From Calothrix sp. MO_167.B42 (GTDB taxonomy: Bacteria; Cyanobacteriota; Cyanobacteriia; Cyanobacteriales; Nostocaceae), in the NCBI GenBank assembly GCA_030065255.1, contig JASJCX010000018.1, forward strand, positions 1-49,161: 49,161 nt of DNA, in the 5' to 3' direction. Each line of letters starts with the position of its first letter. Position 1 is the stretch's first letter. The notes under the pieces are model-generated. The model saw only the letters and a program-made list of their open reading frames with translations, was not told where the DNA came from and searched no databases. Positions 36,143-41,042 of this stretch are shown in pieces. The position numbers and the translations under genes are program-made.

Positions 36143-36245
36143 AAGAGGAGGGAAGGAGTGAAGAAGGGAATTCCCAGATTTGCTGTTCGATATTCCCACA
36201 AGTTTTAGACTCTGTGCGTCTACACTCCCTCATTCCTCCTTAGTC

Positions 36246-36320
36246 GTAGGTTGGGTTGAGGAACGAAACCCAACAAAGTCCTGACAATGTTGGGTTTCGC
36301 TATCGCTCTACCCAACCTAC
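36246..36320. repeat. GTAGGTTGGGTT palindromic element
   Basis: GTAGGTTGGGT (36246-36256) pairs with ACCCAACCTAC (36310-36320). The inner arms CGAAACCCAACA and TGTTGGGTTTCG also pair. The element sits after cobW and may stop its transcript. The same core is nested in the 41183-41278 element. Confidence 0.75.
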
Positions 36321-36394: not shown

Positions 36395-37045
36395 TTATGA
36401 TTCTGATATTTGCTCCAAGCGCGTTAACCATTGATTAAAATGTTGACACTGCTCGCGAATAATATCTAAACCAATATCCAGAGCAATTAGCGAACCATGC
36501 CAAGGTTTCTCGTAATCAGGAAATAAACGTAGAATCCTTTTTGATGGTGCAGTTTGCGGATCATCATTAATATGTTCTGGTGATGTAAATTTATCACAGT
36601 CTGCCTGAAGACAATCAGCAATGTCTTGCCCAAACCAACCAGCAAACGCTTGAGGCGAGCTGTATAAAAGCCCCTCAAATTCATGCACCAGTAAATTGGG
36701 GATAAAATTGTTATTGTCAATATCAGCTCCCATCTGCTGTTCCAAATATGAAGCTTTCACAAATGGATCAGTTGTGTGTGGCTGGGAATTTTTACCAGGG
36801 AAATCACTGAGCAACCCGTATAAATCAAACATGGTGGTCACAAATGCTGTACTGTCCTCTCGGCATTTACGATACACCTGGGGCTTTATTTTTCCATAGC
36901 TAACTACTCCCCCCTTACCTGTTTTGCTCGTTCTTACAAGTATGGGGTAGAGGTATATATTCTGACGCTGAAAATGGTCATACAGCACTTCCCTAACAAA
37001 AGTTTCTTCTGTTTGCCCCTCAACAAAAATATGGACTCGAATCAT
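36395..37045 (-). CDS. DUF4276 family protein, possibly TOPRIM-like, second gene of an ATPase pair
   Basis: A 216-residue protein. It starts MIRVHIFVEGQTEETFV; the acidic EGQTEE (residues 9-14) looks like the first acidic motif of TOPRIM nucleases (as in OLD proteins). Further marks are FDLYG (D74), HEFEGLLYSS (121-130), TAPSKRI and RLEQI. These match my recollection of DUF4276, which is widespread and functionally uncharacterised. The ATG at 37045 overlaps the ATPase stop (ATGA), so translation is coupled; longer starts would lie within the ATPase gene. Nuclease function is inference, not shown. Confidence 0.75.
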   Translation of the reverse strand: MIRVHIFVEGQTEETFVREVLYDHFQRQNIYLYPILVRTSKTGKGGVVSYGKIKPQVYRKCREDSTAFVTTMFDLYGLLSDFPGKNSQPHTTDPFVKASYLEQQMGADIDNNNFIPNLLVHEFEGLLYSSPQAFAGWFGQDIADCLQADCDKFTSPEHINDDPQTAPSKRILRLFPDYEKPWHGSLIALDIGLDIIREQCQHFNQWLTRLEQISES

Positions 37046-38133
37046 CTTGCAGGTCTCCCTCCAAAAATGTTCTTGTTCCATAACTCGCCTAGAGTGTAGT
37101 CTTCCAGCCATTCAGCCAAATCGTCCTCTTCAAGTCGCCTCAGAGATGATTTGCCCCCTTCTCGGTCTACCACAATCACATCTGCTGGCTCAAACTGATT
37201 CAGTAGTTCCACTGATTGGGTAGAAACAATAATCTGCTTCTCTTTTGCTATGGTACGCATTAAGGAGCCAAGAATGGTAATGGCATAGGGATGGAGTCCC
37301 AATTCTGGCTCATCAACCAGAATGGTAGCAGGTTGTAAATCTACGGGTTGTAGAAATACTACTGTCAAACAGATAAAACGCAAGGTGCCATCTGAAAGCA
37401 GATTAGCTTTAAAAGGTACATCTTGCCCCCGTTCTACCCATTCCAATTCAATCACATCAGGGTTTTGTGGTGCTGGACGTAAGTGAAAGTCGCCGAAAAA
37501 TGGAGCAACTAAACGAATAGTTTTAATAATCCGTTGATACGATTGAGAATTAGTTTGGCGCAGTAAATAGAGAAAAGCAGCCAGATTACGGGCATCAGGA
37601 CGCAAGTAAACATTATCATTGATGGCGTGGGGTTGCTTGACATAAGCAGTATCACTGGTGTCATGGAAGTGATAGACACGCCATTGCTGCATAGCAGGCA
37701 CAACGTAATCGTCAATCCCTGTATCAGTACCTTGTAAAGCTAGAGTTTCAAAATGACCCCTGCCAAGCACCATTTCTCTCCCTACATTCCACCAAAAGGA
37801 TTCTTTGGTGAACATGAGGCGATTATCCTGGGTTGGCTCTAGGGTGGCAAAGTAACCATTATTGCCAAAGTAGAGTTCTATTTCTAACTGTTCGGTGGTT
37901 TTGCGACCAAAATGTAATAAGGCATCAGGACTTCCTTGGCGACTCACAAACACTTGCAGATTCTCCTCAAGTATCTGCTGCACCATCCTGAAAAAACCAA
38001 TAAAGTTGGATTTACCCGCCCCGTTACAGCCAATTAAGACATTAAGCTGTGATAATTCTAGGTCACATGAGGCGATGGATTTAAAACCTTTCAATACAAT
38101 TCTTGATAGTTGCTCAGGGCTATCAGGTGGCAT
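37042..38133 (-). CDS. ABC-type/AAA ATPase (RecF/OLD-like), first gene of the pair
   Basis: A 363-residue SMC/RecF-type ATPase. Walker A is GCNGAGKSN (35-43), the ABC signature-like LLSDGTLRF at 245-253, Walker B ILVDEPE (271-277) followed by LGLHP, and the STQS switch at 304-307. KGFKSI near the N-terminus is the usual start of such ATPases. It has no long coiled coil, so it is closest to AAA_21/AAA_15 ATPases that partner with small effectors. Such ATPases sense phage or DNA damage and activate a nuclease partner in several defence systems. The downstream DUF4276 gene overlaps by 4 bases. Confidence 0.85.
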   Translation of the reverse strand: MPPDSPEQLSRIVLKGFKSIASCDLELSQLNVLIGCNGAGKSNFIGFFRMVQQILEENLQVFVSRQGSPDALLHFGRKTTEQLEIELYFGNNGYFATLEPTQDNRLMFTKESFWWNVGREMVLGRGHFETLALQGTDTGIDDYVVPAMQQWRVYHFHDTSDTAYVKQPHAINDNVYLRPDARNLAAFLYLLRQTNSQSYQRIIKTIRLVAPFFGDFHLRPAPQNPDVIELEWVERGQDVPFKANLLSDGTLRFICLTVVFLQPVDLQPATILVDEPELGLHPYAITILGSLMRTIAKEKQIIVSTQSVELLNQFEPADVIVVDREGGKSSLRRLEEDDLAEWLEDYTLGELWNKNIFGGRPAR

Positions 38134-38365: not shown

Positions 38366-38462
38366 TAAATTTCCTCTCTTTTCCTTTTCCTCTGTGTTCT
38401 CTGTGCCTCTGTGGTTTTTTATCATTCCGATGTAACCGGATTTGATATGATATCTCTTGCAA

Positions 38463-39956
38463 CTATCTACCTAACCTGTTAGGAATACCTTCACAACCCC
38501 CAGGAATAGTAGCTCTAGTTTTTTCTCCCCCCCAAGCACAGCAATAGTGACGGGTAGCTTCAGACATCCTTTTAACATGACTGAGGTCCGCATTTTCTAC
38601 CACCGTACCAGTATGTTCCCCTGTTTGATAGTTTGGTGGCTCGGTACGACTGCGGGGAGATGCTGTTTCTAATGAACCATAATATAAACGAATGCCATTG
38701 AGATCCGCACCTTTAAGATTTGTTTCATATAAAATAGCCCGGGATAGGTTTGCCTTAACTAAATCACAACCACTGAGATTTGCCCGGACAAAATTAGCTT
38801 CGCTTAAGTCAGTCCACCGCAAATCAGTTTCTGCCAAATCTGCACCTGCTAACATTACCCCTAAATCAATCACCCGCACCCCTGCGAGCCTATCCTCTGC
38901 ATAACCACCACTACCGTTAAGAATTGCCCTGCCTAAGTGTCCATCCCTTTGTAAGGGTGTAAGTAATTTAGAACGGGAGAGAAATCTGAGAATTTTGGCC
39001 TTACCACTCCCATCTACACTACTAAGAATGGCGGCGGTGCGTCCTTCTGCTAACAGCCGTTCTTGGGGCCAATCTTCTAATAATCCTTCTTCATCTAAAA
39101 CTAAATCTGATATACCTTGGAAGTAAGAATCAATGGTTTGTTGTTGGGTAATAACATTTTGTTGGACGGTGAGTAGGTTTTGCTGAATGGTTAAATCCTT
39201 AGAAATAATATACTGTCGCCAAGCAACATAAACGGCAATAATGGCAATGAGAATTTGTCCTAAAGCACCAAACCATTCTGCTAAGGTTCCCGAGGCTTCC
39301 CAATTAATCTTCCGTCCCCAGGCCATGATAAGATTGCCCAATCCAGTGAATTTAACTAATCCAATAGTACTAACAACAACTCCCACGAATCCGCATAAAA
39401 GCATTCGTTCGTAGGCAGAAAACCACTCTGCGACTACATCTTCTATCCAAGGCAAGAGCATTGCCACAGATAACAATAATGTTGCTATGGTACCGATTAT
39501 ACCTAGGATAAAATTATTGATAGCCATACCGATGACAGTCATGGCGATCGCTACTATTGTTAACAATAATGCCCTAGGAGTAACGGTAATTGGATTTACT
39601 ACTCGCTCTTGGAGTTGATAATTGGTTTGTTTGAGAGTATCTGTATTGTGTTGCGATTGCAAAGTAATTGCTGCTAGAGCTTCTTGTGCAGCTAGCTTTT
39701 CTGTCATCGAGCGACTCTCACTTGCATTGTCAAAATCGTTGGGTTGCAAATCTTTTTCTGGTATGGGATGAAAATTAGGTTCTGCTATATATTGTGCCCC
39801 ACCGGGTTCCACACCGTAACATGATTTTTGCTGAATTAATTGGTATGTTTTTTTAATTGGTATTAATAACCTAACTCTCCCATCTGTTTCTGACACTGAG
39901 TTCAATATTAATAGTAATAGTGTATAAAATAGGGAAATATCTACGGATAGAAGCAA
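38463..39956 (-). CDS. Pentapeptide-repeat membrane protein
   Basis: A 497-residue protein as read from a TTG at 39956; a later ATG (residue 84) is possible. Membrane segments appear at about 128-148, 155-175, 190-210 and 235-250, followed by a soluble part. Pentapeptide repeats lie at about 370-420 (AGADLAETDLRWTDLSEANF..., DLVKANLSRAILYETNLKGA), giving a right-handed beta-helix. The tail is rich in Cys/Gly/Arg. Function unknown; membrane pentapeptide proteins are common in cyanobacteria. It follows the ATPase pair on the same strand, and a hydrolase gene lies divergent 93 bases away. Confidence 0.72.
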   Translation of the reverse strand: MLLSVDISLFYTLLLLILNSVSETDGRVRLLIPIKKTYQLIQQKSCYGVEPGGAQYIAEPNFHPIPEKDLQPNDFDNASESRSMTEKLAAQEALAAITLQSQHNTDTLKQTNYQLQERVVNPITVTPRALLLTIVAIAMTVIGMAINNFILGIIGTIATLLLSVAMLLPWIEDVVAEWFSAYERMLLCGFVGVVVSTIGLVKFTGLGNLIMAWGRKINWEASGTLAEWFGALGQILIAIIAVYVAWRQYIISKDLTIQQNLLTVQQNVITQQQTIDSYFQGISDLVLDEEGLLEDWPQERLLAEGRTAAILSSVDGSGKAKILRFLSRSKLLTPLQRDGHLGRAILNGSGGYAEDRLAGVRVIDLGVMLAGADLAETDLRWTDLSEANFVRANLSGCDLVKANLSRAILYETNLKGADLNGIRLYYGSLETASPRSRTEPPNYQTGEHTGTVVENADLSHVKRMSEATRHYCCAWGGEKTRATIPGGCEGIPNRLGR

Positions 39957-40049: not shown

Positions 40050-41042
40050 ATGTCTACACCGGTAAATATACTTGTAATTATTCATGGTATGGTTCCCCAT
40101 CCTGAACCCAAATCTCCGTTTAAACTGTATCAGGAGTTTTGGGATGCTTTACTTGAAGAGGAACCAGAGCTATCTCAAGTTTTCCCGGAAAGTTTTATTG
40201 GGGTTGAGTGGGGACAGGAGTTACCAATTAATTTCAGCATACCTTCATCTGAAATACGTAACGACCAAAGACTAACCCGCGCCCAAAATTTTGTGAATCA
40301 ACGGATTCGCTACGATGAAGTGGTGCAAGACTCCCACCCTAATAATATTATTCAGGATATGGACTTTCCCATACTCACACCTTTGGTAAGAAAATTAGTA
40401 GTTGGTTTGCGAGAATCTATTATTACCCGTGGTTGTGGTGATGTAATTTATTACTCTTCTGAAGATGGAGAGAGGGAAGTTCGTCGGGCTGTTTATGGAC
40501 AAGTTCTAGAAAAATTAGAGCCTTATCATGAAGCTAAAGATGTTCGTCTTCACCTGATGGGCCATAGTTTGGGTGTTACCCTAACCCATGATTTTCTGTT
40601 TGGCTTATTTGCTCCCAATCATCAACCAGGATTCTGTGAAAAAGATTTTGGTGAGGATGGTAAACGTTTTGAAAAATGGCGACAGAAAGCACAAAAAAAG
40701 GAATTAAAATTGGGTTCTTTGTCTAGTACTGCTTCTCAAATTCCCATGTTTGTCATGCGTAAACAAAAGTTAGTAGATATGTTAGCTGAAAATAAATTAC
40801 TTGACCCTAGTAATATTGGAATCGAGCATACCAATCAGGTGAAGTGGAAACTATTCTACGATGTGGACGATATACTTGGTTTTTGTACTCGACGATTGTA
40901 CAATGCCCCTGATGAAATTAGGGAATACCAAGTAGATTGTGGAGATAATCCTGGTGATGCCCATAATGGCTATTGGAAAAATAAAACAGTAATTAAACAA
41001 ACAGCTAATTTATTGATGTCAAATGCTGCTGGACATGATTAA
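40050..41042 (+). CDS. Lipase-like alpha/beta hydrolase
   Basis: A 330-residue protein with the oxyanion strand VIIHGM (about 9-14) and nucleophile elbow LMGHSLG (S173), plus a candidate histidine in GDAHNGYW (about 305). These fit a serine hydrolase with lipase or phospholipase character; the catalytic acid is not clear. GAGGAG stands before the ATG. It is divergent from the pentapeptide gene and close to the ATPase/DUF4276 pair, so a shared accessory module is possible. No signal peptide. Confidence 0.7.
   Translation: MSTPVNILVIIHGMVPHPEPKSPFKLYQEFWDALLEEEPELSQVFPESFIGVEWGQELPINFSIPSSEIRNDQRLTRAQNFVNQRIRYDEVVQDSHPNNIIQDMDFPILTPLVRKLVVGLRESIITRGCGDVIYYSSEDGEREVRRAVYGQVLEKLEPYHEAKDVRLHLMGHSLGVTLTHDFLFGLFAPNHQPGFCEKDFGEDGKRFEKWRQKAQKKELKLGSLSSTASQIPMFVMRKQKLVDMLAENKLLDPSNIGIEHTNQVKWKLFYDVDDILGFCTRRLYNAPDEIREYQVDCGDNPGDAHNGYWKNKTVIKQTANLLMSNAAGHD

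Follow-up and report, generated by a model that had tools for sequence, protein, structure and literature searches.

An ABC ATPase gene overlapping a DUF4276 gene in Calothrix sp. MO_167.B42 is a copy of the catalogued candidate defence system HEC-01

Does a small two-gene unit of a cyanobacterial contig, in which the gene of an ABC-type ATPase runs into that of a DUF4276 protein, form a phage-defence module, and is such a module new? The unit lies in the 49,161 nucleotides of Calothrix sp. MO_167.B42 (GenBank assembly GCA_030065255.1, contig JASJCX010000018.1, positions 1 to 49,161 of the forward strand) which were analysed as a whole and are called here the window. The pair is real and of the defence type, and it is already catalogued as HEC-01 of PADLOC, a poorly understood candidate phage-defence system. 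It is composed as follows.

37042..38133, minus strand: HEC-01A-type ABC/OLD-like ATPase, 363 amino acids (363 codons)
36395..37045, minus strand: HEC-01B-type DUF4276 protein, predicted TOPRIM-like nuclease, 216 amino acids (216 codons)
37042..37045, minus strand: ATGA overlap of the ATPase stop and the DUF4276 start (-4 spacing in 66/79 loci)

A sequence-only reading had announced a coupled pair at this place, and both open reading frames (ORFs) were found there with their motifs. The mechanically called DUF4276 ORF, with its start at 37111, exceeds by 22 codons the length suggested by the homologues, which align from MIRVHIFVEG. On the basis of this homology and of the ATGA overlap, the start is likely to be 37045 (MIRVHIFVEGQTEETF...), the stop ending at 36395. 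When the start codon nearest to the homology was taken at each locus, the -4 spacing was observed in 66 of the 79 loci having an upstream ORF of more than 200 residues, the other loci lying between -7 and +7. Because this overlap recurs so often, it is not a chance feature of the window, and it probably reflects translational coupling.

HEC-01 is defined by a HEC-01A ATPase and an adjoining HEC-01B DUF4276 protein. The window ATPase matched the HEC-01A model PDLC04175 with an E-value of 1.7e-152 (residues 7-361 on profile positions 4-362 of 363) and the DUF4276 protein matched the HEC-01B model PDLC04188 with an E-value of 5.9e-86 (residues 1-214), so that both components are present, overlapping and nearly full-length. 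The sequence-only reading, in which a DUF4276 version of such modules was presented as not well described, was overtaken on this point by the PADLOC entry. The literature search returned neither the term DUF4276 nor HEC-01 jointly with PADLOC, and the occurrences of 'HEC-01' among the matches listed were unrelated, judging from their titles. HEC stands for Hma-embedded candidate, for which a 2024 preprint (Payne et al., doi 10.1101/2024.01.29.577857) is cited in PMC12988326, an article of 2026. In the passages of that article devoted to protection, several HECs, HEC-06 among them, gave phage protection in assays, and HEC-01 is not named there.

The distribution of the pair was analysed on 81 named loci, corresponding to the best 80 of at least 567 from a scan of genome contigs and to one from a scan of viral contigs. 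An upstream ORF of more than 200 residues was present in 79 of them, 75 with a strict Walker A pattern, and the two loci without it start at most 286 bp from a contig end. By tblastn, the ATPase was detected at 80/81 loci versus 0/20 control regions. Similarly, of the 30 loci returned with PF14103, 28 have a Walker A ORF directly upstream of DUF4276; the exceptions are L026 and L022, in whose genome an ATPase ends about 1.1 kb upstream. The pairing is near-constant. PF14103 itself was found in 81 of 386 Cyanobacteriota genomes, the Calothrix genome included, and the ATPase in 11 of 39 other relatives at E≤1e-60. Relatives of DUF4276 were also found on 12 plasmid records; phage records gave no match and viral contigs a single one.

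The ATPase carries the Walker A motif GCNGAGKSN (residues 35-43), LLSDGTLRF with its LSDG signature (246-249), ILVDEPELGLHP, a Walker B/D-loop segment DEPELGLHP (274-282) and an invariant C-terminal tail W352..N355..GGRP. It matched Pfam AAA_21 (E = 5.6e-25), and its top PDB sequence match was an OLD protein (E = 9.3e-6). These results support the proposed ABC-type ATPase and place it with the OLD/SMC type; AriA and OLD ATPases were not found among the 50 matches listed for the ATPase model. The ATPase alignment gathered the window frame and 53 of 78 ATPase frames, the truncated frame of L040 having been excluded earlier.

The DUF4276 protein matched PF14103 with an E-value of 6.6e-58, and no solved DUF4276 structure was found by sequence. 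In a fold search with the structure model, OLD class 1 and class 2 nucleases and GajA of Gabija ranked at the top, which supports a TOPRIM-like predicted fold rather than an unrelated one, in agreement with the proposal drawn from the acidic motifs. The TOPRIM acidic site is characterized by the motif E ... DxD. Compared with this motif at the level of sequence, the protein possesses invariant E9 and D74, a DxY in place of DxD, and E122 and E124. Its acidic residues E9, E13, D74, E122 and E124, as well as G10, Y76, E157 and K180, were invariant in the 13 rows of an alignment made of the window and 12 loci. This alignment derives from the Pfam-HMM (hidden Markov model) loci (14 of 30 PF14103 loci plus the window, minus L005 and the divergent L029) and is the independent set for residue conservation. 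When L029 was added, E13, D74, E122 and E124 were still invariant (15/15 rows). All nine residues were also invariant in a larger set of 80 rows, from which the short frames of L097 and L107 had been removed, the conservation of D74/Y76 and E122/E124 being there partly by construction because these loci were fetched with patterns spanning D74-Y76 or E122-E124.

With a probability of roughly 0.6, we consider the pair as a HEC-01 defence module in which an ATPase sensor controls a metal-dependent TOPRIM nuclease that halts the growth of the infected cell. The gene structure, the near-constant pairing, the TOPRIM-like predicted fold, the conserved acidic residues, the intact ATPase motifs and the restriction-operon neighbours of some homologues form its basis; complex formation, trigger, metal use, substrate and abortive outcome are what we infer from it. 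HEC-01A would act as the sensor and would hold or gate the small HEC-01B, a putative metal-dependent TOPRIM nuclease. A phage-derived trigger would induce ATP binding or hydrolysis and thereby the release or activation of HEC-01B. The active nuclease would then cut nucleic acid, and this cutting would stop the growth of the infected cell; the analogy with AriB slightly favours RNA as the substrate. Our best guess is a PARIS-like control of the nuclease, and the coupling of an ABC ATPase to a TOPRIM nuclease is a theme described in passages of PMC12839542, PMC10568477, PMC12409363 and PMC9122126. Possible, if rather unlikely, is a mode of the OLD/Gabija kind, in which the ATPase-TOPRIM complex would cleave invading DNA directly instead of arresting the cell via RNA. 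Against it, the two genes are separate as in PARIS, unlike the fused OLD and GajA, and no GajB model was found among the PADLOC matches at 1e-10 for the other 37 ORFs scanned in the window.

The genomic surroundings of the homologues bear on the HEC-01 reading. At L041, L048, L050, L055, L056 and L058, the pair shares a restriction operon with an SNF2 helicase of the DrmD/HmaA-like kind, a methyltransferase resembling those of type III and a type III restriction enzyme (L056 and L058, like some other members, were identified by tblastn only); at L086 and L091 the helicase is present and the methyltransferase match is weaker. A plasmid of Aeromonas media harbours a WYL regulator, SNF2, the ATPase, DUF4276, a short methyltransferase frame, insertion sequence (IS) elements and a DEAD helicase. 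In the matched comparison, the operon was present at 4 of 20 loci (L041, L048, L050, L055) versus none of 20 control regions of the same contigs, a suggestive enrichment in a small sample. When the eight labelled loci were placed on a tree of 80 DUF4276 proteins, 8 changes were needed, of which starred branches force at least 6, and the labels were no better clustered than after shuffling. The restriction-operon arrangement therefore arose or was lost repeatedly, losses being possibly overcounted because just 45 of the 81 loci exceed 18 kb. Between the pair and the methyltransferase, the operons of L050 (10859-11911) and L055 (10692-12479) contain the additional PADLOC candidates PDC-S02 and PDC-S65, accompanied by weak matches to Sir2-Argonaute models, suggesting a slot for exchangeable modules.

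For the other neighbours, 120 proteins from 20 homologue loci were compared with 120 from the 20 control regions, proteins above 700 residues being reduced to their first 700. At 1e-20, 134 PADLOC families were matched at the loci and 67 in the controls (the 25 commonest being listed), mad3-like ATPases having 4 and 2 members, respectively. The control regions also gave matches to one GajA, one GajB, PifA and PDC models. As both sets hold defence matches, only the restriction operon separates the loci from the controls. The neighbour families were varied and did not define a single housekeeping locus; proximity to defence genes in general was not borne out over these 20 loci and 20 control regions. 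A more speculative and doubtful idea is that HEC-01 is a mobile back-up of restriction systems, repeatedly inserted into type III-like operons at the place between the helicase gene (SNF2) and that of the methyltransferase, a PARIS-like fail-safe which would sense anti-restriction proteins, would use a divergent TOPRIM site (D-x-Y for D-x-D) and would be free-standing in cyanobacteria.

In the window, the pair stands among ORFs which, in our own reading of their translations, appear as housekeeping genes: heme oxygenase, CobW-like GTPase, phosphoglucosamine mutase, Trp synthase and Clp ATPase. The PADLOC scan of the 37 other ORFs revealed no defence cluster around the pair; four models (PDC-M37B twice, DolB, mad2) matched one member each. 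On these grounds, a defence island was rejected. The repeat-rich spacers, earlier compared to those of accessory islands, do contain two repeats, both outside the system.

36246..36320, strand not assigned: palindromic dispersed repeat of about 75 bp, downstream of the pair, with matches in its own genome
38288..38305, plus strand: dispersed GCAGAGGCGCAAAGACGC repeat, upstream of the pair, by pattern matches

The first has at least 68 matches in the Calothrix genome, where the two strands of the palindrome were counted separately and 40 of 78 candidate places were scored, and at least 16, 75 and 78 in three same-genus genomes (40 candidate places scored in three of the four genomes). The degenerate pattern GCAGAGGCGC gave 17 matches, the window's own counted. 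Since they belong to dispersed families, the repeats mark no island. In another observation, at L156:5649-5899 of a same-genus genome (G414), a DUF4276 gene beside an intact ATPase frame is seemingly truncated by two copies of the same palindromic repeat after some 40 codons, no DUF4276 frame of at least 60 residues being seen beyond them.

The pair of the window is accessory. In the three same-genus genomes, the similarity of the left flank stops at 36159-36170 and that of the right flank starts at 38461-38464; the flanking genes are on different contigs, so no empty site is demonstrable. At E≤1e-60, the ATPase is missing from two of these genomes, and the third has a copy at another place. 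To the right of the pair, 38466-39956 codes for a protein with C-terminal pentapeptide repeats, found in 9/9 related genomes searched (best copies 71-86% identical), and 40050-41039 for a 330-residue protein having no Pfam, NCBIfam or PADLOC match at E≤0.1; DNA similar to the latter adjoins the pentapeptide gene in 2 of the 3 same-genus genomes.

A function outside defence (DNA repair, plasmid maintenance or another accessory role) would fit the apparently metabolic genes around the pair, the 16 of 20 matched loci devoid of the restriction operon, the plasmid-borne relatives and the defence matches of the control regions, but appears improbable in view of the patchy distribution of both genes, the restriction operons at scattered positions of the tree and the PADLOC assignment. 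Retaining the HEC-01 defence module, an ATPase with a domain of unknown function becomes a concrete hypothesis, a TOPRIM-like DUF4276 nuclease with an OLD/ABC ATPase and named residues. If confirmed, it would add a cross-phylum module to the OLD/Gabija/PARIS group, and the restriction operons in which HEC-01 is placed would hint at what it guards. The window's copy is an ordinary member.

Among known systems, the catalogued HEC-01 is by its name a candidate embedded in Hma, whereas the window copy stands alone, outside any other defence system. The earlier view of an OLD/PARIS-like module is partly supported, for the defence type, with PARIS proper set aside. As in PARIS (AriA-AriB), an AAA_15/AAA_21-type ABC ATPase is encoded by a separate adjoining gene. 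However, AriB carries DUF4435, with D61 and D63 as its DxD where DUF4276 has D74-x-Y76, and the pair gave no DUF4435/AriB match at E≤0.1 and an insignificant profile similarity (hhalign probability 1.7%); membership of PARIS was rejected. Mad3 of MADS was likewise rejected as an equivalog, the ATPase aligning to its model at 105.2 bits, far under the curated cut-off of 420 bits. Gabija differs by GajB, which was not seen with the window pair in the scan reported above. OLD class 1 and class 2 and GajA, like the window pair, combine an ABC ATPase with a TOPRIM domain, which are fused in one polypeptide in OLD class 1 and GajA and divided between two ORFs in the window.
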